DNA of 64,000 nt from Saccharothrix sp. NRRL B-16348 (GTDB taxonomy: Bacteria > Actinomycetota > Actinomycetes > Mycobacteriales > Pseudonocardiaceae), in the NCBI RefSeq assembly GCF_001280085.1, contig NZ_LGED01000198.1, positions 62,001 through 126,000 of the forward strand, written 5' to 3'. How positions within the stretch are numbered: position 1 is the stretch's first letter; each line of letters starts with the position of its first letter. This document shows, in pieces, positions 19,624-63,110 of this stretch. The notes below the pieces were generated by a model. It saw only the letters and a list, made by a program, of their open reading frames with translations, had not been told where the DNA came from and did not search any database. The position numbers and the translations under genes were made by a program.

Positions 19624-19640
19624 TTACCGGACAGTGACCG
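19624..19640. promoter_or_regulatory. Cluster operator site A (TTACCG-N5-TGACCG)
   Basis: TTACCG at 19624-19629 and TGACCG at 19635-19640, 11 bp apart, in the 155-bp divergent promoter region between the monooxygenase (-) and the DinB-like gene (+). Same element as at 20292, 24527, 26848 and 58265. Confidence 0.7.
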
Positions 19641-19671
19641 CAGCCGTGCCACGCGCGCGGACGATGCCCCG

Positions 19672-20253
19672 GTGAACACCTCTTGGGCTGATCTCGTCCG
19701 CACCGCCGCCACCGGGTGCGCCGCCGTCCTGACGACGGCCGCCGACCGGGACTGGTCCTCACCGGCGGGCGAGGTCGAGTGGACCTGCCGCGCCACGCTC
19801 GACCACATCGCGGTCGGTCAGGTCGGCTACGCCGGCATGCTCATCGCCCAGCCGGCCGACCGCTACGTCACGCTGTTCTCCCGGCTCGACCCCAGGGCGC
19901 CGATCGACCGCTGCCTGGAAGCGCTGCGGATCGGCGGCACGCTGCTGGCCTCGACGATCGAGCGGACCGCGCCCGACGTGCGCGCCTGGCACCCGTGGGG
20001 CCGCTCGGACCCCAGCGGGTTCTCCGCGATGGCCGTGCTGGAGCTGACCGTGCACTCCTACGACATCGCACAGGGTCTCGGGGTGGACTGGACACCGCCG
20101 GACGAGTGGTGCCCGCCGGTGGTCGAGCGCCTGTTCCCGCACGCGCCCGCGGGCCACGCCCCGGCGCGGACGCTCCTGTGGTGCACGGGCCGCGGCGAGC
20201 TGCCCGGCGTGCCGAGGCAGACGTCCTGGCGGCCGCACGTGGCGGCGCGCTGA
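19672..20253 (+). CDS. Mycothiol-dependent-enzyme-like (DinB/MDMPI N-terminal) protein
   Basis: 193 residues from GTG at 19672. It matches the four-helix DinB/maleylpyruvate-isomerase-like fold of actinomycetes: a first-helix His in ATLDHIAVGQVGY and a metal-ligand-type ELTVHSYDIAQGLGVDW in the third helix. Related proteins use mycothiol to isomerise or detoxify electrophiles. Here it shares operator A with a cluster oxygenase, so it may open or protect against reactive epoxide or enone intermediates (inference). The usual N-terminal PCPGW motif is replaced by GEVEWTCRATL. The catalytic role is not certain. Confidence 0.7.
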   Translation: MNTSWADLVRTAATGCAAVLTTAADRDWSSPAGEVEWTCRATLDHIAVGQVGYAGMLIAQPADRYVTLFSRLDPRAPIDRCLEALRIGGTLLASTIERTAPDVRAWHPWGRSDPSGFSAMAVLELTVHSYDIAQGLGVDWTPPDEWCPPVVERLFPHAPAGHAPARTLLWCTGRGELPGVPRQTSWRPHVAAR

Positions 20254-20291
20254 CCGGTGCCCGGATCGCCGCGCCGGAGGTGACGCGGCGA

Positions 20292-20308
20292 TTACCCGGA
20301 CAAGACCG
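20292..20308. promoter_or_regulatory. Cluster operator site D
   Basis: TTACCC at 20292-20297 and AGACCG at 20303-20308, 11 bp apart, within the shared context GATTACC-CGGACA. Lies 79-95 bp before the start of the second flavin monooxygenase. Confidence 0.6.
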
Positions 20309-20386
20309 GGCAGCACCCGGGCTCGCCGAAGCTGTGGTCACGGATCCTCGCCACACCATCGAGGAATGTCACTTCGAGGGAGCAAG

Positions 20387-21565
20387 ATGACCACGGCCGA
20401 AAAAGAGTTCGTCGATGTGCTGGACGCGGTGAAAAGCATTGTGCCCACGCTCCGGGAGAACGGCCAACTCGCCGAGCAGCAGCGCTGGATCCCGGACGAG
20501 AACCTCCAGCTGCTGGACAAGGCGGGCGTGTTCCGCCTCGTGACCGAGCGCCGCCACGGCGGCTTGGACGCCTCGATCGCCCAGCAGTGCGCGGTGCTCG
20601 CCGAGATCGGGCGCGGCTGCCCGTCCACCGCGTGGGTGTCCACGGTGTGGCTGGCCAGCTCGTGGGTCGCCCGCGGCCACTCGGCCCAGGCGAAGGAGGA
20701 GATCTGGTCGACCCCGTCGGTGCGCGTCTCCGGTGTGTTCAGCCCGTTCCCGACCGCGACGCTCACCCCGGTGGACGGCGGCTACCTGCTCAACGGGTTC
20801 TGGAAGTTCAACACCGGCTGCCGGGGCGCCGACTGGAACGGCATGAGCGCGACGCTCACGCTGCCGGACGGCACCACCGAGGAGATGGCCACGATCGTCC
20901 CGATCGGCGAGTTCGAGTTCGCCGACGACTGGAACGTCTCGTCCGTGGCGGCCACCGGCAGCTCCACCACCACCGCGAAGGACATCTTCGTCCCCGCGCA
21001 CCGCGTGCAGAAGCTGCACGTGCTGCTGGAGGGCGCGGACAGCCGGTCGGAGCCGGGCAAGACCGACCGGAACTACTCGCTCGGCGAGTTCGCGGTGGCG
21101 CAGGCGGTGGGCACGTTCATCGGCATCGCCAAGGGCGCGCTGGAGCTGTTCATGGAGCGGCTCCCCGGTCGCGGCATCGCCTACACCGCGTGGACCGAGC
21201 AGAGCAAGCACCCGTTCACCCAGATCCAGGTCGGCACGGTGTCGGCGAAGATCGCCGCCGCCGAGGGCCTGTCCGCCGGCGTCAACGAGCTGGTGCAGCG
21301 GCGCGCCGACGAAGGCGTGGAGCTCACCGCGCTGGAGAAGGGCAAGGTCCGCGGCGACAGCGCCTACGCCATGCAGCTCGCCCGGGAAGCCGTGGAGATC
21401 CTGTACAACGCGAGCGGCGCCACGGGCATCCAGCTCAGCGTGCCGCTGCAGCGGTTCCACCGCGACATCCAGGGCCTGTCGCTGCACGGCCTGGGGCTGC
21501 TGAGCACGAACATGGAGATCTACGGTCGGGCCGTCCTCGGCCTGGACGCCGACGGGGCGTTCTGA
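20387..21565 (+). CDS. Acyl-CoA-dehydrogenase-fold flavin-dependent monooxygenase 2
   Basis: 392 residues. ATG at 20387 has GAGGGAG at proper distance; an ATG at 20366 without one is rejected. It is a paralogue of the gene at 18344 with the same blocks: ENLQLLDKAGVFRL, AEIGRGCPSTAWVSTVW, LTPVDGGYLLNGFWKFNTGCRGADW, VAATGSSTTTAKDIFVP and RFHRDIQGLSLHGLGL. Expected to use reduced flavin delivered by a separate reductase to oxygenate the polyketide-alkaloid skeleton. Two copies suggest two oxygenation positions or a heteromer. It has its own promoter (operator D) and a strong bidirectional terminator. Substrate unknown. Confidence 0.85.
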   Translation: MTTAEKEFVDVLDAVKSIVPTLRENGQLAEQQRWIPDENLQLLDKAGVFRLVTERRHGGLDASIAQQCAVLAEIGRGCPSTAWVSTVWLASSWVARGHSAQAKEEIWSTPSVRVSGVFSPFPTATLTPVDGGYLLNGFWKFNTGCRGADWNGMSATLTLPDGTTEEMATIVPIGEFEFADDWNVSSVAATGSSTTTAKDIFVPAHRVQKLHVLLEGADSRSEPGKTDRNYSLGEFAVAQAVGTFIGIAKGALELFMERLPGRGIAYTAWTEQSKHPFTQIQVGTVSAKIAAAEGLSAGVNELVQRRADEGVELTALEKGKVRGDSAYAMQLAREAVEILYNASGATGIQLSVPLQRFHRDIQGLSLHGLGLLSTNMEIYGRAVLGLDADGAF

Positions 21566-21584
21566 CTCCGCTTCTCCCGCCGCG

Positions 21585-21632
21585 CACGCGAGAACGGCCG
21601 ATCTTCCGCGGAAGATCGGCCGTTCTCGCGTG
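21585..21632. terminator. Perfect 24-bp palindrome, bidirectional terminator
   Basis: 21585-21608 is the exact reverse complement of 21609-21632, centred on CCGCGG, between the convergent monooxygenase 2 and MFS genes. Very stable cruciform/hairpin in both directions. Confidence 0.85.
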
Positions 21633-21637
21633 GTGCG

Positions 21638-22822
21638 TCAGGCAGCCTGCGGCGCGGGCGCGGGAGCCGTCGTGACGGCCGCACGCCTGGTGCCGAGGTT
21701 GACCAGCAGGCCGAGCACGCTGATGCCGGCGGCGATGAGGCCGAGGCGGGCGGGCGTGAGCTGCTCCTGGAACAGGCCGCCGACGGCGCCGCCGAGGGCG
21801 ACACCGACGTAGATCGCCGAGTTGTTCAGACCCAGCAGCACCGCCGAGGCGCTCGGCGCGTACATGACGAACCGGCTCTGCTGCGGCACGACCGGCAGCG
21901 AGACGAACACGCCCCACAGCACGGCCCAGACGATCGCGGTGACCAGGTTCGTGACCACGAAGGGGCTGATGCCGAGCATCAGCGCGGCGGCGGCGAGACC
22001 GCCGGTGACGACGCGCTCCGGCGGGTAGCGGTCGGCGAGCCGGCCCGCCACCGTGTTGCCGATCATGTTGCCGACACCCCACGCCAGCAGGATCACGGTC
22101 AGCGCCGTGGTGGAACCGCCCGTGGCGCCCTCGACGGCGGGGCTGATGTAGGTGTACAGCACGTGCGTGCCCGCCAGGCTGGCCGTGGTGACCACCAGCA
22201 GGCCGAACACCCAGCCCTCCTTCAGCGGCTGGAGCCGGGCCTTCAGGGAGTCGGCCGGCAGCATGATCGACGGCAGCGCCACCGCGACGCCGACGACCGC
22301 CGCCACGCCGATGCCGGCGACGACCCACAGGGTGAGCCGCCAGTCGGCGCCGCCGATCAGCGTGCCCGCGGGCAGGCCGAACGCGATGGCCAGGGTGAGA
22401 CCGCCCATCACGAACGCGAGCGCCTGGCCGCGCTTGGCCTCCGGTGCGATGGCCGCCGCCGCGCTGAACGCCGCGGAGCCGATCAGACCGGCGCCGACGG
22501 CCGTGACGATGCGGGCGATCATCACGATCTCGTAGTTGGGGCCGACCGCCGTGACCGCGTTGCCCACGATGAAGACGGCGAGCCCCAGGTACAGGGCGGT
22601 GCGCCGGTCCATCGAGCTCGTGAGGGCGCCCACGATCGGCGCGGAGACGGCGAACGCCAGCGCGAACGCGGTGACGAGCTGACCGGCCGCGGAGACGCCG
22701 ACCTCCAGATCGGCGGCGATCTGCGGGAGCAGACCGGCGATGACGAACCCGTCGGTGCCGACCGCGAAGAGGGCCACCGAAAGGGGGATGAGTTGCTTGT
22801 ACAGCGAGCTCCGAGTTTCCAA
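21638..22822 (-). CDS. MFS transporter, DHA1 drug-efflux type
   Basis: 394 residues with twelve predicted helices. The DHA1 signature is visible: LFAVGTDGFVIAGLLPQIAADL in helix 1, GALTSSMDRRTALYLGL in loop 2-3, and the antiporter-type GxxxGPxxGG-like GGLTLAIAFGLPAGTLIGG in helix 5. It most likely exports the cluster product, giving self-resistance. The start is probably TTG at 22822 (METRSSLYKQLIPLS); GAGGA lies very close to it, so the true start is uncertain. It follows the GMC gene by 69 bp and is probably co-transcribed from operator F. Confidence 0.85.
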   Translation of the reverse strand: METRSSLYKQLIPLSVALFAVGTDGFVIAGLLPQIAADLEVGVSAAGQLVTAFALAFAVSAPIVGALTSSMDRRTALYLGLAVFIVGNAVTAVGPNYEIVMIARIVTAVGAGLIGSAAFSAAAAIAPEAKRGQALAFVMGGLTLAIAFGLPAGTLIGGADWRLTLWVVAGIGVAAVVGVAVALPSIMLPADSLKARLQPLKEGWVFGLLVVTTASLAGTHVLYTYISPAVEGATGGSTTALTVILLAWGVGNMIGNTVAGRLADRYPPERVVTGGLAAAALMLGISPFVVTNLVTAIVWAVLWGVFVSLPVVPQQSRFVMYAPSASAVLLGLNNSAIYVGVALGGAVGGLFQEQLTPARLGLIAAGISVLGLLVNLGTRRAAVTTAPAPAPQAA

Positions 22823-24475: not shown

Positions 24476-24526
24476 CCCACGCTCCCCCTGTGCCCGCTCA
24501 TATGTCTGCTTCATCGTTCCTGCCGC

Positions 24527-24543
24527 CAGTCACTGGCTGGTAA
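24527..24543. promoter_or_regulatory. Cluster operator site F (minus-strand orientation)
   Basis: On the minus strand TTACCA-N5-TGACTG (24543 to 24527), 11-bp period, two differences from the consensus of sites A and C. Positioned 52-68 bp before the ATG at 24475, which argues against the start at 24514. Confidence 0.5.
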
Positions 24544-24565
24544 TCGATCTCTCACGCACGGTGAA

Positions 24566-26699: not shown

Positions 26700-26847
26700 C
26701 GGTGGAAATCCCTTCGGTGACTCTTGGTGGGCGTTCACGCCGGACGGCGACCAGTGGGCGACAACGGCCGCACGCGTCTTTCCCGGCAGGACCAGCATTG
26801 CCGCCGGTCGGCACTTCCGGGTCATCGACGCCGCGCGGGGGCGGAAG

Positions 26848-26864
26848 TGACCGGACAATGACCG
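26848..26864. promoter_or_regulatory. Cluster operator site B (TGACCG-N5-TGACCG)
   Basis: Two identical hexamers TGACCG at 26848-26853 and 26859-26864 with spacer GACAA, 149-165 bp upstream of the SDR start. On the minus strand this reads CGGTCA-N5-CGGTCA. The spacer GGACA is shared with sites A and D. Confidence 0.7.
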
Positions 26865-26899: not shown

Positions 26900-26931
26900 A
26901 AAGCAAAACAGCCGCAGAAGATCTGCGGCTG
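26900..26931 (-). terminator. Rho-independent terminator of the second SARP gene
   Basis: CAGCCGCAGA (26909-26918) and TCTGCGGCTG (26922-26931) form a perfect 10-bp stem with an AGA loop. On the minus strand it is followed by TTTTGCTTT (complement of 26900-26908), a rare proper U-tract in this GC-rich window. It lies 142 bases beyond the stop at 27074. The rest of the 26700-27073 gap holds only operator B. Confidence 0.8.
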
Positions 26932-27073
26932 GTTCGGGCGTGCGGTTATCGGGTTGTGGTGCTCCGCACGGCTCCCCGGCGGAGCGGGGCCGGCGTCCGA
27001 GCGGTGCGGGTAGTGCGATCGGGCGATTTGTGGCGGACGCTCGGCAGCGACGCTGCGACCGGCGCCCGTCCGC

Positions 27074-29272
27074 TCATCCGACGGCTGTCGCGGTCGCTGT
27101 CGAGTACAGCCGCATCGCACCTGGCCTGGACACGACGTCCAGCGTCAACGTGGTGGCGTAGGGCTTGCCGCCACCCCACTCCGGGCGGCGCTGCAGCAGG
27201 CCGAGCCGGCCGCCCACGATCACCATCAGAGGCACGCCCACCATGCACCCGACCACGCCCTCGATGAGGTTCAGCATCGCGTCGTTGGCGAGGTGGAGGT
27301 CGTCGACGAACACGGCCAGCGGCCGTTCCCGCAGCGCCTGGCTGACCACCTGGTTCCAGTCGCGGGCCGCGGCCTGCTTGCCCTCGGCGTCGTAGTTGTC
27401 GCCGTCCTGGCCCGGTTCGAGCAGCGGGGCGAGGCTCTCCATGGCCAGCTCGGTGTTGGCGGGATCACCGAGCACCTGCTGGACCGTGCGGTACAGCTTG
27501 AGCTCCGCGACGTTGGACGAGTCGCCGGGCTGGATGCCGCAGCACGCCGCGAGGATCTCGGCCCGCAGGCCCCACGGGCCGGCGAACGGCGGCGTGCGCA
27601 CCACGTGCAGCGGCGTGCCGTCCACGACCCGGCCCGCGACCCGGCTCTCGAACGTCGACAGGAACCAGCTCTTGCCGCTGCCCGGCACGCCGAGCACGGA
27701 CGCGAGCATCGGCCGCTTCCTGGTCACCGCGAGCATGAGCAGGCTCTCCAGCACGTCCATCTCGTGCTCGTACTCGGCGGGCGGCACGGCGTCGTGCGCG
27801 ATGTCCAGGCAGCGGCAGCCCGCCACCCGCCAGCCCGCCTCACCCGTGCGCTCGAAGGCGATGTGCCCGGCGGTGGCCATCCGGGTGCGCTCGCACACCA
27901 GGACCTCGCCGGGGCCGCCGAGCGAGAGCAGCTCCTCGCAGGCGACCATCAGCGCGCCGTTGCCCGACTGCGAGCCGCCCTGGGCGGCGGCGGAGCGGAC
28001 CGTCGTCTCCCCCGTCGAGACCGCCGTGTGGAACGCGAACCGGCCGGCCCGCGCGTCCAGCTCGGTGCGGTCCCGGATGGCCAGCGCCGCCATGACCGCG
28101 CGCTTGGCGTAGTCGTCGCCGTGCCGGTTGGGCTCGAACAGGGCCAGCGAGTACGACCCGATCGAGGCCAGCACCGCACCGCCGCAGCGCTCGGTCTCCT
28201 CGCGGATGACCGCCGCCACGTCGTGCAGCGTGTCGTCCACCGTCACGCCGTCGTCCCAGCCGCGGGTGCCGATCTCGGCGCGGACGATCAGCGCGCTGGC
28301 CTGCCGCCACGACGTCGCGCGACGGTGGTCGGCGTGCCCGTGGTCGGCGGCGACCGGCTCCGGCTTGCTCTCGAGCCTGCCCTCGGACCGGCTCTCCACC
28401 CTGCTCTCGGTCCTGGGGTCGCCGGCCAGCACCAGGGGCCCGCGCCGGCGCACCGGCTCCACCAGCGGCGCCTCGATCAGCGCGGGCAGCCCCGTCGGCC
28501 TGCCGGGCAGCGCCAACGCGGCCGACTGCTCCAGGATCGACTGCTGGAGCTGCTGGAGCTCCAGGCCGGGGTCCAGCCCCATCTCCTCCGCCAGCGCCAC
28601 CCGGAACCGGGCGTAGACGTTGAGCGCGTCGGCCTGCCGCCCGCACCGGTAGAGGGCGAGCATCAGGTGCGCGATCGAGCGTTCCCGGAACGGCTCGGCC
28701 TCGACCATCTCCTCCAGGTCGCCGAGCACCGCGTAGTGGCCACCGCAGCGCAGCTCGGCCTCGAACCGGTCCTCCACCGCCGCGAGCCGCGACGTCTGGA
28801 TGGACGCCAGCTCGGACCACTCGACGCCCGCCTCGACCAGGTCGGCGAGCACCGGACCGCGCCACAGCGCCAACGCGTCCCGCAGCAGCGACGCCGCCTT
28901 GTCCGGCTGGCCGTCGGCGAGCTCACGGCGCCCGTCGGCGACCAGGCCGCGGAACCGGCACAGGTCGATCTGGTCGGGCTCGACGTGCAGCACGTACCCC
29001 GGCGCCTTGGTCTGCAGCGACACGCCCGAGGCCGCGCCGCCCGCCGTGGCCAGGATCCCGCGCAGGCCCCACACCGCGTTCTGCAGCATCTTCCGCGCCG
29101 ACGCGGGCGGGTCGTCGCCCGTCCACAGCGCGTCGACCAGACCGCTCGTGGACACCACCCGATTCGCGTGCAGGAGCAGGAAGCCCAGCGTGGCTCGTTG
29201 CTTGATTCCGCCGAGTTGAACGGATGTTTCACCGACGTTTAAGTCGAGCGGTCCTAAGACTCGAAAAAGCAT
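27074..29272 (-). CDS. Cluster-situated SARP with degenerate cyclase domain and ATPase
   Basis: 732 residues. N-terminal winged helix (MLFRVLGPLDLNVGE...GGIKQRATLGFLLLHANRVVS), then BTAD to ~255. Residues ~325-470 resemble a class III adenylate/guanylate cyclase (ALIVRAEIG, GGAVLASIGSY, GDDYAKRAVMAALAIRD, FHTAVSTGE, GPGEVLVCERT). Both metal-binding aspartates are replaced (Glu333 and Ser373), so it should sense rather than make nucleotides. An ATPase domain follows, with Walker A GVPGSGKSW (Lys534) and Walker B-like PLAVFVDDLH. It ends abruptly without TPR repeats. Leu6 and Leu11 are TTA codons, implying bldA dependence. Located between tailoring genes and PKS: the probable pathway activator. 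Confidence 0.88.
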   Translation of the reverse strand: MLFRVLGPLDLNVGETSVQLGGIKQRATLGFLLLHANRVVSTSGLVDALWTGDDPPASARKMLQNAVWGLRGILATAGGAASGVSLQTKAPGYVLHVEPDQIDLCRFRGLVADGRRELADGQPDKAASLLRDALALWRGPVLADLVEAGVEWSELASIQTSRLAAVEDRFEAELRCGGHYAVLGDLEEMVEAEPFRERSIAHLMLALYRCGRQADALNVYARFRVALAEEMGLDPGLELQQLQQSILEQSAALALPGRPTGLPALIEAPLVEPVRRRGPLVLAGDPRTESRVESRSEGRLESKPEPVAADHGHADHRRATSWRQASALIVRAEIGTRGWDDGVTVDDTLHDVAAVIREETERCGGAVLASIGSYSLALFEPNRHGDDYAKRAVMAALAIRDRTELDARAGRFAFHTAVSTGETTVRSAAAQGGSQSGNGALMVACEELLSLGGPGEVLVCERTRMATAGHIAFERTGEAGWRVAGCRCLDIAHDAVPPAEYEHEMDVLESLLMLAVTRKRPMLASVLGVPGSGKSWFLSTFESRVAGRVVDGTPLHVVRTPPFAGPWGLRAEILAACCGIQPGDSSNVAELKLYRTVQQVLGDPANTELAMESLAPLLEPGQDGDNYDAEGKQAAARDWNQVVSQALRERPLAVFVDDLHLANDAMLNLIEGVVGCMVGVPLMVIVGGRLGLLQRRPEWGGGKPYATTLTLDVVSRPGAMRLYSTATATAVG

Positions 29273-30106
29273 GGCTCCACCTACCCCCCCGTAGGCTGAC
29301 TTCACGGAAATACCGTACCATGGGCCCTGGTAAACGCCCGGCACAGACAGTGCACAAAGCGACCCTCCGTCACTCGATCGGTCGCATCCGCCAAGCACTC
29401 GCCGTGACCACCGTTGCAGGCACGCACGTCGAGCACCCGACGGGTTGCGGATGGCGGTGACGGCAATCGCACCGCGGATCCGGACAGCGGGCGCGCGAAT
29501 CGAATTCGGATTCCCACTTCCCGTCCGCCGGATCCACTTTTCACACCAATTCGGGTACGGCGCAACGAAAAACCGATCCGGGAATACGGGACCACGTCGC
29601 AGCCGACGCCATTCACCTGAACAGCGGAGCGCGTCCAGCGCATTCGACACCGACCGGCGCACACCACTGCGGAATGCCGCAGCGGGCAATCCCGTCCCGC
29701 GCGGTCCGCCTGAAGTCGCGCACCGCGACGGCGGCACGCCGAACAGGACCCTGCGCGATCTTCCGGCGTGCCGCGCTATTCCGGCGTTACGGTCCAGCGG
29801 CTCGCGGCGGAACGTCCCCGCGAGAGGCGACCCACGAGGCCCGGGTGGCGCGGTCGCGAGGTCGACCGGTGATCAACCGTCCCTCGCGACGCCCTTATAC
29901 TTCGCCCAACTGCCATTTCGAACTCCCCCAGTCGACGACGCCCACGCCGGACCCGCACGTGCCGGTCTCGGCCTGGCCAGTCTTGCGGCCCGATCATCAC
30001 TGCCCGGACACCGTTGGCTCATCCCAGGTCGTGGACACCGGGTGACCCCACGATGACCGAAGGTAGGTAAGCACCGTGTGAAAACGGGCACGCCTGCGGT
30101 GTGAGC
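29273..30106. other. Non-coding region between SARP gene start and PKS end
   Basis: 892 bp separate the SARP start from the last PKS stop. Open frames here lack codon bias and family similarity. Local A/T content is higher near 29470-29600 (AATTCGG words repeated at 29499 and 29550, EcoRI-centred near-palindrome GAATC-GAATTCG-GATTC at 29498). It must contain the SARP promoter, but I could not place -10/-35 elements or a copy of the cluster operator. Confidence 0.5.
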
Positions 30107-30162: not shown

Positions 30163-30164
30163 GA

Positions 30165-36179
<6,015 letters not shown>

Positions 36180-36201
36180 GAGTGCTCCCCAGTGGTGGTG
36201 G

Positions 36202-36231
36202 CCCACCCGGCGCGAGGCGCGGCCGGGTGGG
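36202..36231 (-). other. Hairpin in the PKS B-PKS C intergenic gap
   Basis: CCCACCCGGC (36202-36211) and GCCGGGTGGG (36222-36231) pair perfectly over 10 bp with a 10-base loop. It lies in the 101-bp spacer, 23 bases before the PKS C start and next to its GGGGAG ribosome site. Could attenuate transcription, stabilise a processed end or hide the ribosome site. Confidence 0.5.
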
Positions 36232-36280
36232 TTGTCCGTCCCGCGGGCGCGGGTTCTTCCGGTGGTGGCCTGCGACGGCG

Positions 36281-39200
36281 TCAGCGCGAGGCGCGGCCGA
36301 GTTGGTTGTCGATGAAGTCGAACAGCTCCGAGGTGGACGCCTCGGCGAAGTCGGGCCGGGCGCGGTCACCGCCGTTCTCGTTCCAGCGCGTCAGGATCGT
36401 GTGCAGTCGGACGGTGATCTCGTCGCGGTGGTCCTCGTCGTGGCCGATCGCCGCCAGCGCCTCCTCCAGCCGGTCCAGCTCGGCCAGCGCGCGTGGCGTC
36501 GCGGCGGGCGTGAGGCGGTCCAGCAGCGACCCGGCGAGCGCCGCCGGCGTGGGGTGGTCGAACACCGCGGTGGCCTCCAGCCGGACACCGGTCGCGGCGA
36601 CCAGCCGGTTGCGCAGGTCCACCGACGTCAGCGAGTCGAAGCCGAGGTCGCCGAACTGGCGGTCGAGGTCGACCCGGTTCGGGTCGCCGTGGCCGAGGAC
36701 CGCCGCGACCTCCTGCCGGACCGCTTCCTCGACCAGCCCGCGCCGGTCGTCGTCCGCCACGGCGGCCAGTCGTTCGGCCAGCGTGGCGCGCGGGGTCTCG
36801 CGCACGAGACCGAGCAGCAGCGGGCTGGCCGGCATGGCCGACAGCGGTGCGGCGACCACGGCGGGTCGGCCCGCGCGCACGGCGTCCTTCAGCGCACCCT
36901 CCTTCAGCATGGCCTCGTCGGCCAACGCGTTGTCCGCCAAGGCGTCTTCGCGCAGGGCCACGAACACCGCGTGCGGCCGGGTGCGCGCCAACGCCTCCAT
37001 GAACGCGGCGCCCGCGGCGTGGTGCGCCCGGCCGGACGCGCCGAACCAGTCCTCCACGCTCGACACGAGCACGAGCGGCTGGTCGGGGTGCTCCTGGTGC
37101 AGCCGCCACGCCGTGTCGACCGCGGCGCGCAGGGCCGAGGTCAGCGCGTCGTCGTCCAACGCCGCCAGCACCGCGCGGTCGAGGGCCTCGGGCCGGTGCA
37201 CGACCGCGTCGACCAGCTCGGCCGTCTCCTTCACCGCCGCCCTGACCAGCCGCGGCGCGAACGCGCGACCGTCGCGGACCAGCACCTGCGCCTCGCCGGA
37301 GGCCACGATCGGGGCTAGCGACGCGGGTTCGCCGCCCACCAGCACGATCCGGCCCGGCGCCTCCGCCTGCGCGGCGCGCACCAGGCCCCACACGGCGGCC
37401 ACGCCCGGATCGGCCGGGTCGGGGGTGAGGACGACGACCCGGCTGTCGTCGGCGGACCGGGCCCGCAGCTCCGCCAGCACGTGCCGGGTGGCGGTGTGCG
37501 CGGTCGCCACCGGGTCCGGCCCGGCCTCGACCCTGATCACGACCGCCTCGGGCTCGGCCGGCCGGTCCACATCGGACTGGTGATCGCCAGACCGGTGCGT
37601 ATCGGACCGATCGGCCGACTGGTGTTCGGCGGACTGAAGATTGTTCGAGAGGTGCTCGGCCGACGGCAGCTCAAGCGGCGTCCACTCGACCTCGTACAGC
37701 GTGGTGCGGCCGAGCGGTCGGTGCTCGACCGAGTCGACCCGCGCCACCTCCGCGCCCCGCTCGTCCCGGAACACCAGCGCGTCCACGTGGGTGGCGACGC
37801 CCGGCGCCGTGGCGCGCAGACCCCGCCACGACGTGGGCTCCACGTCGTCCCGGACCAGCAGCGCCAGGTCGACCTTGGCGGCGACCGGCGCGCCCGCGGT
37901 CAGCGTGCCCCGCGCGTGCTCGACCCAGCCGTCGTGCCACGCGTGCACCGCGACCGGTCGGGCGCCGTCGTGCGGCGCGCCCACCCTGACCTGGACCCGA
38001 GCGCCGTCCACCACCGGCAGCGACGTGACGTCGAGGTCCACCACGGGGTGCCCGACCTCGCGGCCCGCGTGCCACGCCAGGTCCGCCAGGTCCACGGCGG
38101 TCAGCGGACCGGTGGCCGTGCCGGTGAACAGGACCTCCTCGCTGCCCGCGACCGGCACGGCGGCGTCCAGCACCGGGTGGCCGCTCGCGGTGCGCGGGCG
38201 CGGAGTGAGCCAGTACCGCTCGCGCTGGAACGGGTACGTGGGCAGCACGACCCGGCGGCCGGGGAACGCCGACCAGTCGACCGGCACGTCCCGCGCGTGC
38301 AGGCGGGCGAACAGCTCCGTCGCGGTGTGCCGCTCCGACCGGTCGCGGCGCAGCGCGGGCACCGCCTCCGCGCCCTCCGGCAGCACCGCGTCCACCAGGC
38401 CCGACAGCACCGCGTCCGGCCCCAGCTCGACGAACGTCGTGACGCCCGCGTCGAGCAGCGCCTGGGTGGCGTCGGCGAACCGGACCGCGTCGCGGACGTG
38501 CCGCACCCAGTGCTCCGGGTCGGTCCAGTCGGCGTCGCCGCCGGTCACCGTCGACACGGTCGCGAGCACCGGTTCCCGGTAGGTCAGCGACTCGGCCACC
38601 GCGCGGAACTCGGCCAGCATCGGGTCCATCAGGTGCGAGTGGAACGCGTGGCTGACCACCAACCTCTTGTGCCGGAACCGGGCCGCGTACTCGACCACGG
38701 CCCGCTCCTCGCCGGACAGCACCACCGAGCGGGGACCGTTCACCGCCGCGATCGCCACGCCGGCGGGCAGGTCGAGCTCGTCCTCGGCCGCCTGGACGGA
38801 CACCATCGCGCCACCCGGCGGCAGCGCGCCCATCAGCGAGCCGCGCGCGGCCACCAACTTCGCCGCGTCGTCCAGGGACAGCACGCCGGCGACGTGCGCG
38901 GCGGCGATCTCGCCGACCGAGTGCCCCGTGACGAAGTCGGGTCGCACGCCCCACGACTCCAGCAGTCGCGCCAACGCCACCTCGACCGCGAACAGCGCCG
39001 GCTGCGCGGTGGCGGTGTCGTCCAGCCCGTCGCCGGAGCGGATCGCCTCGCGCACCGGCAGCAGCGAGCACACCTCGTCCAACGCGGTCGCGAACACCGG
39101 GAACGCCCGCGCCAGCTCCTCCCCCATGCCGACGCGCTGCGAACCCTGACCGGTGAACAGGAACGCCAGCCGCCCAGGACGGACCTTCGGCAGCCGCACC

Positions 39201-42200: not shown

Positions 42201-45200
42201 AACGGCAGCAGGGCGGGCCGGTCGTCGACCACGCCGGGCAGCAGCGGGTGCAGCGCGGCGTCGAACAGCGCCGGGTGCACGGTGAACCCGGTGAGCGGCA
42301 CCTCCTCGGGCGACGCGACCTCGGCGAACAGCTCGTCGCCACGCCGCCAGACCCGGCGCAGCCCCCGGAAGACCGGGCCGTAGCCGTAGCCGTGCTCCTG
42401 GAGCCCGTCGTACGTGAAGTCCACTTCGGACGCGTCCGCGGGCGGCCACGCCACCAGGTCGGCCACGTCGACGCCACCGTCCTCGACCGTGCCGGTGGCG
42501 TGCCGGGTCCACGGTTCGTCGTCGTCACGCCGGGAGTGGATCTCCACGGTCGTGTCGGCGCGCACGACCCGCAGCGTCAGCGCGCCGTCGTCGGGCACCA
42601 CGAGCGGCGCGGTGACGGTCAGCTCGGCGACCGGGCCGACGAGTTCCACCAGCGCCGTGCCTGGCACGACGATCGCGCCGTGCACCCGGTGCTCCGCCAG
42701 CCACGGCTGGGTGGCCGCGGAGAGGACGCCGGTGACCACCGTCGAGCCGTCCGGCAGGTCGACCGACGCGCCCAGCAGCGGGTGCCCGGTGGACCGCAGG
42801 CCGGCGGCGGCCACGTCACCGCCCGCCACGGGCCGCAGCCAAAAGCGCTTGCGCTGGAACGCGTACGTGGGCAGCGAGACCTTCCGCGCACCCGGGAACA
42901 CCCGGTCCCAGTCGACGCCGACGCCCTGCACGTGCAGCGCGGCCAGCGCGCTCGCGACCGTGCGGGGTTCGGACTGGCCCGCGCGCAGGAGCGGCACCGG
43001 TCGCACGTCGTCGGTCGCCGAGGCGGCCAGGCCGGACAGGACGGCGTCCGGGCCCAGCTCGACGAGCGTCGTCACGCCTTCCTCGCGCAACGCGACGAGG
43101 GCGTCGTGGAACCGCACCGTCGCGCGGACCTGCTCCACCCAGTACTCCGGGTCGGTCCAGTCCGCGTCCCGCGACACCGTGGACACCGCGGTGATCGACG
43201 GCGGCCGGTAGGTGAGCGTCCGGGCCACCGCGCGCAGGTCCGCGAGCATGGGCTCCATCAGCGGCGAGTGGAACGCGTGGCTCACGGCCAGCCGCTTGCC
43301 GCCCCACGGTTCCGCGGCCCGGAGCACGGCCTCCTCCGGCCCGGACAGCACGACCGATCGCGGACCGTTGACGGCGGCCACCGCCACGCCCTCGGGCAGG
43401 TCCAGCTCGTCCTCGGCGGCCCGCACGGCCACCATGGCGCCACCGGCGGGCAGTGCCTGCATCAACGCGGCCCGCGCGGTCACCAGCTTCGCCGCGTCGG
43501 CCAGGGACAGCACCCCGGCCACGTGCGCGGCGGCGAGTTCGCCGATCGAGTGGCCGACCACGAAGTCCGGGCGCACGCCCCACGACTCGACCAGCCGGAA
43601 CAGCGCCACCTCGACGGCGAACAGCGCCGGCTGCGCGAGACCGGTGTCGTCGAGCCCGTCGCCGGACTCGATCGCCTCGCGCAGGGGTAAGTCGAACCGC
43701 GCGCACACCTCGTCCAGCGCGGCGGCGAACACCGGGTACGTGCGGGCCAGCTCCAAGCCCATCCCGACGCGCTGCGCGCCCTGACCCGTGAACGCGAACG
43801 CGGTCCGGCCCTTGCGCGGGACGACGGCGGCCGGGATGTCGTCCGCGTCGACGCCGGCGGCGCGGTACGGCATCGGCGTGCGGGTCGCGAGGGTGTACGC
43901 GGCGTCCGGCGTCCACTCGACCCCGGCGAGTCGGCGGGCCTGCTCCGCGACCGCCTCCGGCGAGCGACCGCACAGCACGATCGGCACCGGAACGGTCGCC
44001 GGAGCCGTCGGTGGCTCGGTCTCGTCCGGCTCCTCCACGATCACGTGCGCGTTCGTGCCGCCGAAGCCGAACGACGACACCGCCGCCCGGCGCGGCCGGT
44101 CTCCGCGCGGCCACTCGCGGGCCTCGGTCAGCAGCTCGACCGCGCCGGAGGACCAGTCGACGTGCCGGGACGGCTGCTCGGCGTGCAGCGTGCGGGGCTG
44201 CACGCCGTGCCGCATCGCCTGCACCACCTTGATGACGCCGCCGACGCCGGCCGCCGCCTGGGCGTGGCCGATGTTCGACTTCAACGAGCCCAGCCGCACC
44301 GGCTCGGCGCGGTCCCGCCCGTAGGTCGCGAACACCGCCCGCGCCTCGATGGGGTCGCCGAGCGTCGTGCCGGTGCCGTGCGCCTCGACCAGGTCCACGT
44401 CCGCGGCGGACAGCCCGGCGGCGTCGAGCGCGGCCCGGATGACGCGTTCCTGCGCCGGGCCGTTCGGCGCGGTCAGGCCGTTGGACGCGCCGTCGGAGTT
44501 CACCGCGCTGCCGCGGAGCACGGCGAGCACCCGGTGGCCGTTGCGGCGGGCGTCGGACAGCTTCTCCAGCAGCAGCACGCCGACGCCCTCGGCCCAGCCG
44601 GTGCCGTCGGCGTCGTCGGAGAACGACTTGCAGCGCCCGTCGGCGGCCAGGCCGCGCAGCCGGGAGAACTCGACGAACGCGGTCGGCGTGGACATCACCG
44701 TCGCGCCGCCCGCCACCGCCAGCTCGCACTCGCCGCGGCGCAGCGCGTTCGCGGCCAGGTGCATCGCCACCAGCGACGACGAGCAGGCCGTGTCGACGGT
44801 GACGGTCGGGCCCTCCAGGCCGAAGGTGTAGGCCAGCCGACCGGAGGCGATGCTGCCCGCGCTGCCGCTGAACAGGTAGCCCTCGACGCCCTCCGGCGGC
44901 AGGTTCGCCCGCGAGCCGTAGTCGTTGTACATCACGCCGACGAACACGCCCGTCCGGCTGCCGCGCAACGCCTCCGGGTCGAGGCCCGCGTCCTCGAACG
45001 TCTCCCAGGTGGTCTCCAGCAGCAACCGCTGCTGCGGGTCCACTGCCACCGCCTCGCGCGGCGAGAGGCCGAAGAACTCGGCGTCGAACCGGTCGGCGTC
45101 GTGCAGGAAGCCGCCGTGCCGGCTGGTGGACTTGCCGACCCGCTCGGGGTCGGGGTCGTACAGGTCGGCGGGCCAGCCGCGGTCGGTCGGGAACGGGGTC

Positions 45201-45397
45201 ACCGCGTCGCGCCCCTCCGCCACCAGCCGCCACAGCTCGTCCGGCGAGGTCACGCCGCCGGGGTACCGGCAGGCCATGCCGACGATCGCGACCGGTTCCT
45301 GGTCGCGTTCCTCGACCTCCTTGAGCCGGCGGCGGGCTTCCCGGGCGTCGGCGATGGCCCGCTTGAGGTAGTCGCGGAGCTTGTCTTCGTCAGCCAC
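36281..45397 (-). CDS. Type I PKS B: module 3 (KS-AT-DH-KR-ACP) and module 4 (KS-AT-DH*-KR*-ACP)
   Basis: 3038 residues. GTG at 45397 (AGGAG 5 bases before), 12 bp after PKS A. N-terminal coiled-coil docking segment ([21 protein letters not shown]). Module 3: KS Cys205; AT HAFH at 707 (malonyl); DH His903 in [10 protein letters not shown] plus [17 protein letters not shown] at 1237, VRD (B-type), [12 protein letters not shown] Ser1520. Module 4: KS Cys1744; AT HAFH at 2250; then a DH-like stretch with no HxxxGxxxxP; and a KR remnant without the TGxxGxxG motif, whose catalytic Tyr is His (GRAHHAAGA); ACP Ser2922. Module 4 should leave a ketone. Leu570 is encoded by TTA (43688-43690). C-terminal docking helices follow the last ACP. 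Confidence 0.95.
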
Positions 45398-45409
45398 GTC
45401 GTCTCCTGG

Positions 45410-58162
<12,753 letters not shown>

Positions 58163-58264
58163 CGACTGTCCTTCGCACCAGGGGATTCCTCGACGTCCTT
58201 TCCTATCAACCTTTTTCTCGGTTCCAGTCACGAATCGGTAGGCGGCCGTTCTCGGAATGGCCGA

Positions 58265-58281
58265 TTACCGGCCCGTGACCG
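58265..58281. promoter_or_regulatory. Cluster operator site C (TTACCG-N5-TGACCG)
   Basis: TTACCG at 58265-58270 and TGACCG at 58276-58281, 11 bp apart, in the divergent promoter region of PKS A (start 58162) and the NTF2-like/aminotransferase pair (start 58341). CTAACG begins 8 bp after the second repeat, the spacing between repeats and -10 reported for SARP promoters. Confidence 0.72.
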
Positions 58282-58340: not shown

Positions 58341-58724
58341 ATGACCACGAATACGGACGAGTTCGCGCTGACCGACGACGCGACGCAGATGACCGCTCTC
58401 TACGTGCGTGCGATGAACGCGGGCCACGTCGAAGCGGTGCTCAACCTCTACACCGAGGACGCCGTGTCGGTGTGGGACCCGGAGAAGCCGATCAGCGGCG
58501 CGGAGCACCGGGCCGCGGTCGAGGAGTTCATGGCCCAGCGGCCGGTGATGCGGGCCGAGCTCAAGGAGTCCTACGTCACCGGTGACACCGCGCTGCTGGT
58601 CGTGGACTGGGAGATCGCCGTCGAGGGCTCGGAGACGCTGACCGGCACCGGCCTCGACGTGCTGCGCCTCGGCGACGACGGCAAGTGGCGCTACGCCATC
58701 GACAACCCGTTCGGCGACAACTGA
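58341..58724 (+). CDS. SnoaL/NTF2-like small protein 1
   Basis: 127 residues. ATG at 58341 is preferred; a longer frame from 58257 would run through operator C. NTF2-like cone fold: ATQMTALYVRAMNAGHVEAVLNLYTEDAVSVWDPEKP, then GAEHRAAVEEFMAQRP, then paired beta strands (TALLVVDWEIAVEG) and DGKWRYAIDNPFGDN. Related to the DUF4440/YybH group and distantly to limonene-epoxide hydrolase and SnoaL cyclases. It ends one base before the aminotransferase start, so the two are translated together. Candidate cyclase or epoxide-opening enzyme for the amine intermediate. Similar to the protein at 62545. Confidence 0.8.
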   Translation: MTTNTDEFALTDDATQMTALYVRAMNAGHVEAVLNLYTEDAVSVWDPEKPISGAEHRAAVEEFMAQRPVMRAELKESYVTGDTALLVVDWEIAVEGSETLTGTGLDVLRLGDDGKWRYAIDNPFGDN

Positions 58725-58725
58725 C

Positions 58726-60180
58726 ATGGTCCTCGAACTGGCCGAGGCGCACCTGCGCGGCCTGCTGTCCCAGCTCGGGCTGGACGCGGAGTACGTGCGC
58801 GGCGAGGGCGACACGCTGTGGTGGCGCACCGGCGACGGCGAGGTGCCGGTGGCGGACTTCGTCGGCGGCTACGGCTCGCTGGTCCTGGGCCACAACCACC
58901 CGGACGTGCTGGCACTGGCGCGGGAGCTGCTCGACGCGCGCGTCCCGGTGCACGCGCAGTTCTCCTACCACCCGTACGCCAACGACCTCGCCACCGCGCT
59001 GAACCGCGTGCTGTGGCGCGAGTTCGACACCGAGCAGCCGTACGCGGCCATCTTCGCCAACACCGGCGCGGAGGCCGTCGAGGTGGCGCTCAAGCACGCC
59101 GAGATGGCCCGCGTCGGGCGCGTCGAGGCGCTGCGCGCGGAGATCGAGGCGCACCTGGCCGACGCCGACCCGGGGCTCGCCCGCCAGGCGAGGGAGCACA
59201 ACGACGGGCTCTTCGAGTCACCGCCGGTGTTCCTGACGTTGGAGGGCTCGTTCCACGGCAAGCTCGCCGCCAGCGTCCAGCTCACCCACAACGCGGGCTA
59301 CCGGCTGCCGTTCCGCGGCTTGGCCGCGCAGGCGCGGTTCGTGCCGGCGGCCGAGGTCGCGAAGGCCGTCGAGGCGGAGCGGGTGACCGTGCTCGACGTG
59401 GTGGACGGCCGGTTGACGGAGCGTGACCTGCCAGTGGTCGCGGCGTTCTTCGTCGAGCCGATCCAGGGCGAGGGCGGCATCCACCTGCTGGACACCGCGG
59501 TCGCGGCGGAGATCCGGGCGGCGGCCGACGCGGGCGGCTTCCCGGTCGTGGTCGACGAGATCCAGACCGGGTTCGGGCGCACCGGCGCGTTCTACGCCGC
59601 GTCGCACGTCGGCCTGCTCGGCGACTACGTGCTGCTGGGCAAGGCGCTGGGCGGCGGGCTGGCGAAGGCGTCGGTGATGCTGGTGCGGCAGGACCGGTAC
59701 CTGTCGGACTTCGAGCTGCTGCACAGCTCGACCTTCGCCAAGGACGCCTTCTCCTGCCACATCGGCTCGCGCGTGGTCGAGCTGCTGGAGGCCGACGGTG
59801 GCGCCGCGTACCGGCAGGCGGCCGAGCGCGGCGAGGCCTTGGCCGAGGCGTTGCGCGCGGTGCGGGAGGAGTTCCCGACCGTCGTGTCCGAGGTACGCGG
59901 GCTCGGCCTGCTGCTGGGCCTGGAGTTCCACGACCAGACCGCGGGTGACGGCCCGGTCGCCGAGTTCGCCCGGATGGGGCTGCTCGGCTACCTGGTGGCC
60001 GGGTACCTGCTGCGGGAGCACCACGTGCGGGTGTTCCCGACCGCGAGCGCGACGCACACGCTGAGGTTCGAGCCGTCCATCGGGATCGAGGACGCCGCGA
60101 TCACCCGGCTCACCACGGGCCTGCGGGAGGTGTGCGCCGCGCTGCGCGACCACCCGGAGACCCTCATTCCGCCTGGCTGA
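58726..60180 (+). CDS. Class III PLP-dependent aminotransferase
   Basis: 484 residues. Fold-type I, class III signatures: ANTGAEAVEVALKHAEMAR for the PLP phosphate region, LEGSFHGKLAASVQLTHN, Asp277 in VVVDEIQTGFGRTG, and PLP-binding Lys306 in LLGKALGGG. The C-terminus has the substrate Arg region (LRFEPSIGIE). Such enzymes swap a carbonyl for an amine. Next to a PKS ending in a thioester reductase, the natural substrate is the released C12 aldehyde, giving a primary amine that can cyclise on the C5 ketone. This parallels the aminotransferases of coelimycin- and streptazone-type clusters (from memory). A perfect hairpin follows. Confidence 0.93.
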   Translation: MVLELAEAHLRGLLSQLGLDAEYVRGEGDTLWWRTGDGEVPVADFVGGYGSLVLGHNHPDVLALARELLDARVPVHAQFSYHPYANDLATALNRVLWREFDTEQPYAAIFANTGAEAVEVALKHAEMARVGRVEALRAEIEAHLADADPGLARQAREHNDGLFESPPVFLTLEGSFHGKLAASVQLTHNAGYRLPFRGLAAQARFVPAAEVAKAVEAERVTVLDVVDGRLTERDLPVVAAFFVEPIQGEGGIHLLDTAVAAEIRAAADAGGFPVVVDEIQTGFGRTGAFYAASHVGLLGDYVLLGKALGGGLAKASVMLVRQDRYLSDFELLHSSTFAKDAFSCHIGSRVVELLEADGGAAYRQAAERGEALAEALRAVREEFPTVVSEVRGLGLLLGLEFHDQTAGDGPVAEFARMGLLGYLVAGYLLREHHVRVFPTASATHTLRFEPSIGIEDAAITRLTTGLREVCAALRDHPETLIPPG

Positions 60181-60353: not shown

Positions 60354-60365
60354 CCGCGACCGCGA

Positions 60366-61955: not shown

Positions 61956-62476
61956 CGTCGCCTTTCGGTCGTGTCGACGTGCCCGTACGCGCCCTCGAAG
62001 AACAGCAGGCCGGCCGCTCCGCCACCCCGACCGGAGCCGAGGACGCGGCCGATGAACACCGAGTGGTCGCCCGCTTCGTGAGCCTCCGCCAGCTCACACT
62101 CCAACCACGCCAGCGAGTCGGTGAGGACCGGCGCGCCGGTCCGCTCGCCCGGCCGCCACGCGACCGCGTCGAACTGGGCGGGCCCGTCGGGACGGGCGCG
62201 GTCGGCGAAGTGGCGTGCGCTGGCCTCCTGCTCGGCGCTGAGCACCGACGTGGCGAAGTGGCCCGCCGCGGTGATCGCACCGTGCATGGTGGCCGTGCGG
62301 GCCACGCAGCACAGCACGAGCGGCGGGTCCAGGGACACCGAGCTGAACGCGTTGGCGGTCATGCCGTGCATGTGCTCGCCGCCGACGGTCAGCACGACCA
62401 CGCCGGTGGCGAACCGGGCCAGGGTGGAGCGCATCTCGGCCGGGGTGACGCCGGACAGCTCAGGGGCGAGGTCCAT
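61952..62476 (-). CDS. Flavin reductase (HpaC/flavin reductase-like domain)
   Basis: 174 residues from ATG at 62476 with AAGGAGG 6 bases before it. Typical features are MRSTLARFATGVVVLTVGG, MTANAFSSVSLDPPLVLCCV (flavin-phosphate contacts), GHFATSVLSAEQEASARHFAD and a C-terminal GRVLGSGRGGG. It uses NAD(P)H to reduce free FMN/FAD, which diffuses to the group D monooxygenases. It is the only such reductase in the window, so it probably serves both enzymes at 18344 and 20387. Four-base ATGA overlap with the carboxyltransferase gene. Confidence 0.92.
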   Translation of the reverse strand: MDLAPELSGVTPAEMRSTLARFATGVVVLTVGGEHMHGMTANAFSSVSLDPPLVLCCVARTATMHGAITAAGHFATSVLSAEQEASARHFADRARPDGPAQFDAVAWRPGERTGAPVLTDSLAWLECELAEAHEAGDHSVFIGRVLGSGRGGGAAGLLFFEGAYGHVDTTERRR

Positions 62477-62502
62477 CGCGCGCCTCCTTTTCGCGAGGGT
62501 GG

Positions 62503-62531
62503 GCGCGGACCGCGACGGGCGCGGTCCGCGC
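62503..62531 (-). other. Hairpin between NTF2-like 2 and flavin reductase genes
   Basis: GCGCGGACCGCG (62503-62514) and CGCGGTCCGCGC (62520-62531), perfect 12-bp stem, 5-base loop, in the 68-bp gap. It may be a partial terminator that lowers expression of the two downstream genes relative to the first. Confidence 0.5.
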
Positions 62532-62544
62532 GTGGCCGTGGGTG

Positions 62545-62955
62545 TCAGAGGTCCTGGACCTGGTCGGCGACCGGTCGGTCGACGGCCATGACCCACTTGC
62601 CGTCCTCGCCGCGCACCAGGACATCGGTGCACTTGCCGAGGATGCGCTGCTTGCGACCGTCCTCGAGGGTGAGCACCAGGTCGTAGTTGACGATGATCAA
62701 CGACGTGTCCGCGGTGGCGTAGTAGGCCTTCACGGACGACTTGAGCTCCGGGCCGGTGGCGAGCAGCGCGGTGATGGCCTCGGTGCGCTCCTTGCCCGTC
62801 AACGGCTTGCCGGACAGGTTGGAGATCGAGTCGTCCCGGTAGAGGCTGTCGAAGATGGCCCCCTCACCGGAGTTGAACGCGGCCAGGAAGACGTCGTTCT
62901 GGGTCTCGGGATCGTCGGTGAGATCCAGGTTCCGCAGGTCGATCTGCGCGGTCAT
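62545..62955 (-). CDS. SnoaL/NTF2-like small protein 2
   Basis: 136 residues. ATG at 62955 has GAGG 7 bases upstream; an ATG at 62973 is possible. NTF2-like: PETQNDVFLAAFNSGEGAIFDSLYRDDSISNLSGKPLTGKERTEAITALL, strands SLIIVNYDLVLTLEDG, and C-terminal DVLVRGEDGKWVMAVDRP. It has the same layout as the protein at 58341 (DUF4440/YybH group), with little exact identity. Members act as isomerases, cyclases, epoxide hydrolases or binding proteins; no catalytic triad can be assigned. First gene of a three-gene unit with the flavin reductase and carboxyltransferase, behind operator E. Confidence 0.78.
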   Translation of the reverse strand: MTAQIDLRNLDLTDDPETQNDVFLAAFNSGEGAIFDSLYRDDSISNLSGKPLTGKERTEAITALLATGPELKSSVKAYYATADTSLIIVNYDLVLTLEDGRKQRILGKCTDVLVRGEDGKWVMAVDRPVADQVQDL

Positions 62956-63092
62956 GGGCAGCCTCGCTTTCATGCGTGGTTCTTCAGAGATCCCACGCCA
63001 CGCTATCCACCACGCCCTTTCTGCCCCTCACCGCGGAATAACTGGGCGCACACCGCCGTGTCCATTGCGCATTCGACGCGGAGATCAGCCGA

Positions 63093-63110
63093 TTACCGCC
63101 GACCGAACCG
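63093..63110. promoter_or_regulatory. Cluster operator site E (degenerate)
   Basis: CGATTACCG (TTACCG at 63093-63098) is identical to site C on its left side. The second repeat is weak: GAACCG at 63105-63110, 12 instead of 11 bp away. It lies 138-155 bp upstream of the NTF2-like protein 2 start. Confidence 0.45.

Follow-up and report, generated by a model that had tools for sequence, protein, structure and literature searches.

The DNA analysed here (the window, 64,000 nucleotides; positions 62,001 to 126,000 of contig NZ_LGED01000198.1 from Saccharothrix sp. NRRL B-16348) contains a polyketide synthase (PKS)/alkaloid-type gene cluster whose promoter regions carry direct repeats with an 11-bp period. 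These repeats, called boxes below, are most probably the operator of the cluster's own Streptomyces antibiotic regulatory protein (SARP), a reading to which we give a probability of about 0.86. The boxes keep their sequence and register in the cluster shared with Saccharothrix variisporea, stand in phase with -10-like elements and recur around SARPs of the same subfamily in other genomes. A direct-repeat operator of this SARP in front of six transcription units had been claimed from the letters alone (the sequence-only reading). That interpretation is partly supported: its observation is confirmed and its core is right, with details wrong.

27074..29272, minus strand: SARP regulator, 732 amino acids from the ATG at 29272, with DNA-binding domain, BTAD and AAA_16; proposed binder of all boxes

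Pfam recognised BTAD (PF03704, 161 bits) and AAA_16 (PF13191, 36.2 bits; cut-off 32.6) in the regulator. Trans_reg_C missed the threshold of E 1e-3, and residues 1-260 align with the structures of AfsR (8hvr, E 1.3e-29) and EmbR (2fez, E 3.7e-37). The protein has the OmpR-type DNA-binding domain, the BTAD and the C-terminal ATPase part of a large ATPase-fused SARP. The nearest characterised regulator that we met is ArpRI of argimycin P biosynthesis. Among the 44 candidates scored with the query 27074-29275, which includes one extra residue, no other SARP of the genome was found at E 1e-60, and general Pfam scans of the block 18344-63057 turned up no second regulator. TIGR03903, a kinase/cyclase fusion model, weakly matches the middle and C-terminal part of the SARP (33.7 bits, well short of the cut-off), hinting at a degenerate cyclase-ATPase module.

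Boxes in the cluster and their promoter geometry

The sequences previously given for 19624, 20292, 24527(-), 26848 and 58265, and for the weaker site 63093, read as claimed. A half-site matrix trained on the first five sites in both genomes has the 8-bp consensus [GA][AG]T[TG]ACCG, repeated at the 11-bp period. When it was scanned over the whole 44.7-kb block, the top was formed by eleven intergenic boxes, namely the five training sites, 30041(+), 30005(-), 58225(-) and three further repeats that precede P1, P2 and P3 in register (labels as listed below). Next came 25914(-) at the end of the short-chain dehydrogenase/reductase (SDR) gene (21.4), then the best in-gene box (21.2). The lower-scoring 26808(-) was accepted as a box because of its position, its phase and its identity in both genomes. 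New with respect to the earlier list are 30041(+), 58225(-), 30005(-) and 26808(-), and the weaker 19585 and 63025.

19585..19603, minus: P0, weak box GCAGACCT-3-CGGGAGTG for monooxygenase 1 (score -0.9; 5.0 in S. variisporea), 37 bp behind P1
19560-19565, minus: P0 -10-like TAGAAC, 19 nt downstream; TAGAA at +19 kept in S. variisporea
19611..19651, plus: P1 operator, in-register repeats GGTTGCGG, GATTACCG, AGTGACCG, CCGTGCCA, for the MDMPI/DinB-like gene
19660-19665, plus: P1 -10-like GACGAT, 8 nt past the last repeat
20279..20319, plus: P2 operator, 11-bp register, GGTGACGC, GATTACCC, CAAGACCG, AGCACCCG, for monooxygenase 2
20328-20333, plus: P2 -10-like GAAGCT
24527..24556, minus: P3 operator CGTGAGAG, GATTACCA, AGTGACTG, for GMC oxidoreductase-MFS
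24513-24518, minus: P3 -10-like AACGAT
26808..26826, minus: P4 operator GATGACCC-3-AGTGCCGA, for SDR-P450; identical in S. variisporea
26794-26799, minus: P4 -10-like AATGCT
26846..26864, plus: P8, strong box AGTGACCG-3-AATGACCG, facing no gene; back to back with P4
29994..30023, minus: P5 operator GATGAGCC, GGTGTCCG, AGTGATGA, upstream of the SARP gene with a leader of about 700 nt
29979-29984, minus: P5 -10-like AAGACT
30041..30059, plus: P9, strong box GGTGACCC-3-GATGACCG, facing no gene; back to back with P5
58225..58243, minus: P6 operator GCCTACCG-3-CGTGACTG, for the PKS genes
58200-58205, minus: P6 -10-like TAGGAA, 19 nt downstream
58263..58281, plus: P7 operator GATTACCG-3-CGTGACCG, for SnoaL-aminotransferase; back to back with P6
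58291-58296, plus: P7 -10-like TAACGT
63025..63054, minus: P10, weak in-register triple GGTGTGCG, AGTTATTC, GGTGAGGG that would serve SnoaL2-flavin reductase-carboxyltransferase (scores 3.7 and 5.3; in S. variisporea 3.5 and 0.3, with the hexamer 1 nt farther away)
63000-63005, minus: P10 -10-like TAGCGT
63080..63098, plus: weak sixth box GGAGATCA-3-GATTACCG (15.3; 13.7 in S. variisporea), pointing away from the SnoaL2 unit

The claim of one operator common to six units holds for the shared SARP-type 11-bp repeat, and fails for the number of boxes and their assignment. The 26848 box had been given to SDR-P450; it points away from that unit, which has its own box at 26808(-). The single site 58265 had been shared out between the PKS and aminotransferase genes; the PKS genes have their own 58225(-), and 58263(+) is assigned to SnoaL-aminotransferase. 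Sites were said to lie in six promoter gaps, and a further pair, 30005(-)/30041(+), is found upstream of the SARP gene. The sixth site, 63093, does exist as a weak box; it faces away from the SnoaL2 (NTF2-like 2) unit for which it had been proposed, and that unit's own box is weak. Between the SARP start and the box pair, about 600 bp (29273-29900) are poorly conserved in S. variisporea and hold no clear gene.

The whole cluster is collinear in S. variisporea from 18344 to 63057, with 84% identity over aligned bases. With the partner register free to slide by up to 4 bases, the five sites of the earlier list have 67 of 80 half-site bases identical there, as compared with 9 of 15 in the spacers and 188 of 330 in the flanks. 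The corresponding counts for 30041 are 16/16, 1/3 and 20/66. Boxes 26808, 30005 and 58225, which were found through conservation, keep 45 of 48 half-site bases; all nine boxes, these three included, give 128/144 (half-site), 15/27 (spacer) and 305/594 (flank).

According to PMC10936776, the repeats of SARP promoters are spaced by 11 or 22 bp, the final one stands 8 bp before the -10 element, and contacts are made with the first 8 of each 11 bases. Counting from the final base of the second repeat, we examined 30 offsets for -10-like elements that occur in both genomes. An xAxxxT hexamer was found at six of the nine boxes (+8 at P3 and P4, +9 at P7, +19 at P1 and P2, +20 at P5), and a TA element at three of the nine (+8 at P8, +9 at P7, +19 at P6). 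Off phase, only P5 at +6 and P9 (TA) at +4 keep such an element in both genomes. Adding a further 11-bp repeat to 8 gives the offset +19, and P1 and P2 show a third repeat in degenerate form. In silico, the hexamers at +8/9 and +19/20 thus put some 8 bp between the last repeat and the -10, and the earlier view of the 11-bp repeats as a SARP-type operator agrees with the geometry described for SARPs. By these positions, transcripts from P0, P2, P3, P6, P7 and P10 would have leaders of about 30-50 nt; that of P1 would begin near the GTG itself, and those of P4 and P5 would have leaders of about 90 and 700 nt.

We propose that one SARP monomer would read one 8-bp half-site, and that an operator would consist of two to four repeats, some of them degenerate. 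A poor -10 would follow 8 or 9 nt after the last repeat, or else 19-20 nt after the second good one, in which case a degenerate copy lies in between. This spacing between repeat and poor -10 suggests that the bound SARP substitutes for the -35 element and might recruit RNA polymerase, as in the AfsR structure. Every transcription unit of the cluster would then carry a strong or weak box, the SARP gene probably too.

The motif in the genome and around related SARPs

The pattern TKACCN6WGACNG has 44 matches in the 10.89-Mb host genome, 6 of them in the 39 kb of the cluster (the reversed control pattern gave 12), and four of its seven TTACC forms fall in the cluster. The sixth cluster match, 30043, was absent from the earlier list. 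In leave-one-out matrices, each of the five good sites tops the 64-kb window or ranks directly below other known sites, 20292 being additionally outranked by the new 30041 site. A crude coding/non-coding test, run on 30 of the 44 genome matches, carries no weight, since its over-extended open reading frames caused 3 of the 6 cluster sites to be labelled coding too. The equally good matches elsewhere that the sequence-only reading had named as counter-evidence are partly found for the motif alone. A motif unique to the cluster was rejected, as isolated equal-scoring matches occur elsewhere in the genome; it is concentrated there and not exclusive to it. Conservation, SARP association and promoter geometry are independent of motif uniqueness.

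The five-site matrix, left as trained, was then run on the surroundings of related SARPs in other genomes. At a score of at least 19 there were 24 matches in 768 kb around 22 SARPs with the helix N[AS][VI]W (mostly Saccharothrix, with two loci of other genera, G160 and Actinokineospora L064), 20 in 579 kb around 15 Streptomyces-type SARPs, and 2 in the 398 kb that surround 10 NAVS- or NAVA-helix SARPs. Random stretches of 400 kb and 180 kb gave none. The mirror matrix at the same threshold found 0 around SARPs, 0 in the 400-kb and 1 in the 180-kb random stretches. The signal is specific to the 11-bp period, spacings of 9, 10, 12 and 13 bp giving just 0-2 matches per set. A box scoring 17 or higher is present at 16 of the 22 Saccharothrix-type and 9 of the 15 Streptomyces-type loci, and such boxes are intergenic in 34 of 38 and 25 of 25 cases (by a simple gene caller that leaves about 20% of the DNA intergenic). 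Among the Streptomyces-type loci, they occur at 8 of 9 with W in the recognition helix and at 1 of 6 with Y. The W-helix loci L038, L058 and L090, for which short flanks were kept, are uncounted. As a sufficient marker, W in the recognition helix was rejected, given that 6 of the 22 loci carrying it have no box of 17 or more.

As the matrix finds repeats around related SARPs and none in random DNA, the SARP at 27074 is the likely binder of the boxes. The earlier proposal that it binds all six sites is retained in this respect, with the site list and assignments revised. Most related loci also share enzymes, namely relatives of the window aminotransferase, monooxygenases, flavin reductase or PKS, so the set is largely one alkaloid-cluster family plus one SARP family. 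A control cluster in which matching enzymes stand under a different regulator was sought by way of the aminotransferase. The two loci so picked, with the SARP not used, carry the same SARP type and a box pair at 37 bp before the PKS. They are 96% identical and thus count as one case, in which cluster descent and SARP identity are inseparable because both carry the same SARP type.

At L130 and L135, whose SARPs have S in the recognition helix, a nearby box reads GATTACCG-3-GATTCCC[GC], which may be a variant operator of their own.

Back-to-back box pairs and alternative readings

In the window, three pairs of boxes lie on opposite strands with their backs together, P4/P8 and P6/P7 with 38 bp and P5/P9 with 36 bp between starts. 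Around related SARPs, an opposite-strand partner scoring at least 8 was sought within 12-90 bp of each strong box (at least 17). The 63 strong boxes gave 54 pairs with the partner behind, 3 with the mirror matrix and 1 with the partner in front, this face-to-face control looking toward the gene and perhaps covering slightly less intergenic DNA. After related promoters were merged, a partner stood behind in 21 of 32 families and face to face in 0 of 32; in this step 22 boxes were chained together as a single family, so that the count came out lower. The merged distances are 12, 16, 28, 29, 33, 35, 36, 37, 38 (five), 39, 48 (four), 49, 68 and 81 bp, and 15 of the 21 fall in 27-29, 36-39 or 48-50 (Rayleigh p ~1e-4, period 10.5 or 11). 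These merged figures are preferable, as third repeats in the same register partly determine the pair distances (one promoter family shows 28, 39 and 50). Of the 39 unmerged pairs at 24-51 bp, 20 have a gene in front of both boxes; in 13 the partner alone faces one and in 6 the strong box alone, and there is no pair in which neither box does.

The second, opposite-strand box at about 38 (28, 49) bp back to back might anchor a second SARP dimer, which would steady the weaker, gene-facing box through cooperative binding. We see an even chance that in ArpRI-type SARPs the operator unit is such a back-to-back pair with fixed helical phasing (spacings of about 28, 38 or 49 bp). Two SARP dimers would then sit next to each other in a single assembly, perhaps linked via the ATPase parts, and the weaker promoter box would be anchored by a strong gene-less one. 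In the literature searched, mostly without subscription papers and bioRxiv preprints, no fitting report of a back-to-back pair layout or a recognition-helix link for SARPs was met. A search for the motif letters together with SARP, under the same restriction, had only unrelated papers among the matches listed.

Several observations weigh against an operator of the cluster's SARP. Of the 31 genome places with at most one mismatch from the full consensus, 27 lie outside the cluster, as do 8 of the 12 among them that score at least 18.4; with two-mismatch places assessed only among the matches listed (391 places counted in all), equal-scoring sites elsewhere number at least 8. The score of 26808(-), 15.4, is below two in-gene matches (21.2 and 16.1). 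The own boxes of monooxygenase 1 and of the SnoaL2 unit are only weak, P5 stands some 700 nt upstream of the SARP gene, and P1-P3 have no good back-to-back partner. Among the Saccharothrix-type loci 6 of 22 lack a box of at least 17, among the Streptomyces-type loci 6 of 15, and some boxless loci, e.g. G011 and G802, carry the same recognition helix. Finally, most box-bearing SARP loci share biosynthetic genes, so the motif could travel with clusters and have another reader.

The outward boxes 26846(+) and 30041(+) might be promoters whose transcripts are antisense to the SARP and PKS genes and act in negative feedback, a reading that we regard as unlikely. Both are among the strongest boxes and conserved, and a TA-containing hexamer lies 8 nt downstream, for 26846(+) in both genomes and for 30041(+) in the window; these hexamers, however, lack the xAxxxT form of the other promoters. 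Around related SARPs, the 43 gene-facing strong boxes (unmerged) have xAxxxT 8 times at +19, 4 times each at +9 and +0, and 3 times at +20, whereas the 20 facing no gene (unmerged) have it at most twice at any offset and 0 times at +19, a weak contrast in view of the 4 off-phase cases at +0.

That the operator was inherited with whole alkaloid clusters and is read by another protein, the SARP being involved at most indirectly, seems quite improbable to us. Most boxed SARP loci do carry relatives of the window enzymes, and the 10 loci with NAVS/NAVA-helix SARPs hold few such enzymes and few boxes. Box placement, however, varies among clusters, and the SARP is the sole regulator recognised in the window cluster; its argimycin counterpart ArpRI is an essential activator (PMC5300972, PMC5820336).

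A different regulator such as PhoP could read the boxes, a reading we rate slightly lower still. Pho boxes are themselves 11-bp repeats, of the GTTCACC type. At afsS in Streptomyces, the region bound by PhoP overlaps that of AfsR (PMC10972967). The boxes, however, gather around one SARP subfamily and neither around other SARPs nor in random stretches, they stand at the SARP distance from the -10, and a phosphate regulon would be genome-wide. Isolated matches do occur in a GC-rich genome, but a repeat picked by eye from noise is refuted by the conservation, the 11-bp specificity and the prediction in other genomes.

The cluster and known SARP systems

Pfam scans of the window identified two acyl-CoA-dehydrogenase-like flavin monooxygenases, an MDMPI/DinB-like protein, an MFS protein, a GMC oxidoreductase, a P450, an SDR, the SARP (BTAD + AAA_16), two SnoaL-like proteins, a class III aminotransferase, a carboxyltransferase and a flavin reductase. 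The units and hairpins of the PKS/alkaloid-type block 18344-63057, common to the window and S. variisporea, are as follows.

18344-19516, minus: monooxygenase 1
19672-20253, plus: MDMPI/DinB-like gene, GTG start
ATG 20387, plus: monooxygenase 2
21585..21632: perfect 24-bp hairpin between convergent units
ATG 24475, minus: GMC oxidoreductase-MFS unit
ATG 26699, minus: SDR-P450 unit
26906..26934, minus: terminator-like hairpin 3' of the SARP gene, absent from the earlier list
30165..58162, minus: three modular PKS genes (ketosynthases 3+2+1), the last protein ending in an NAD_binding_4 reductase domain; ATG of the PKS unit at 58162
58341-60180, plus: SnoaL-aminotransferase unit
58726..60180, plus: class III aminotransferase (Pfam)
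ATG 62955, minus: SnoaL2-flavin reductase-carboxyltransferase unit

The four hairpins reported earlier (21585, 24566, 60206, 60317) are all present in the sequence, and the left edge proposed at 18344 is exactly where the block collinear with S. variisporea begins. Six ketosynthases in three proteins (3+2+1) with a terminal reductase, together with a class III aminotransferase and a flavin reductase, constitute a coelimycin/argimycin-type gene plan, by which the cluster is assigned to this type. At two convergent gene ends, the S. variisporea cluster has long hairpin-rich repeats with words GTATGGCCTGCCCGAAGGGCTACC, and the window has simple hairpins there. Immediately left of the cluster edge, an RtcB RNA ligase (minus) adjoins an NAD-dependent DNA ligase (plus) at 14890-18169. 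Outside the block, 11442-14504 (plus) encodes a second SARP-type regulator with NB-ARC and TPR, which is AfsR-like (364 bits against the AfsR model, yet far under the model cut-off).

A matrix for the ArpRI-type operator across Saccharothrix and Streptomyces would allow the promoters, borders and targets of silent alkaloid clusters to be predicted. It also yields exact mutations for testing. The phased pairs, including gene-less boxes, make cooperative SARP assembly testable and may bear on why large SARPs have an ATPase part. SARP activation via paired dimers, if true, would be a mode absent from the SARP literature consulted for comparison. SARPs, direct repeats and triplet operators are already known (PMC5930380, PMC10972967, PMC10936776); the phased back-to-back layout, the extra boxes and a predicted cross-genus operator of this SARP subfamily are the new parts.

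The coelimycin cluster, also of the polyketide-alkaloid kind, has the SARP activators CpkO and CpkN. Of these, CpkO is of medium size and CpkN small (PMC10972967), whereas the window SARP is large. In PMC8062868, the DNA sites of CpkO are stated to be undetermined, and the model figure there marks the activator binding site as unknown. For ArpRI, no operator is described in PMC5300972 and PMC5820336, the word "operator" being absent from both main texts. ArpRI of Streptomyces argillaceus is an 828-amino-acid SARP with BTAD and AAA_16, and the argimycin P cluster likewise has three PKSs (loading + 2, 2, and 1 modules plus reductase), an aminotransferase and a flavin reductase; it differs by an additional TetR repressor (PMC5300972, PMC5820336). 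PimR, the SARP-LAL regulator of pimaricin, resembles the present system as a SARP fused to an ATP-binding part that binds cooperatively to two or three repeats with 4-bp spacers and an 11-bp period, but it has the consensus CGGCAAG, a single target gene and an operator clear of the -35 (PMC5930380). By eye, with no dedicated CGGCAAG scan, this heptamer is unmatched by the box consensus.

The AfsR/afs box at afsS of S. coelicolor is alike in its 11-bp direct repeats, in the first 8 bases being contacted and in the last repeat lying 8 bp from the -10, and the SARP dimer there engages the -35 region and sigma (PMC10936776). Back-to-back pairs are present here and absent from the descriptions of AfsR consulted. 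AfsR has NOD/TPR parts, whereas the window SARP has an AAA_16 part; in the alignment, W74, P79 and R94 of AfsR are kept in the window SARP, and T88, S91 and R92 are replaced by N, W and G. The register used for AfsR relies on the -10 coordinates of the afsS promoter. In our reading of this register and of the residue numbering, R92 of AfsR contacts T as the second base of the 8-mer (PMC10936776), where the window operator has A or G. The half-sites differ as well, GTT[CT]ATCG for AfsR (from CGTT(T/C)ATCGNN; PMC10972967) versus [GA][AG]T[TG]ACCG here.

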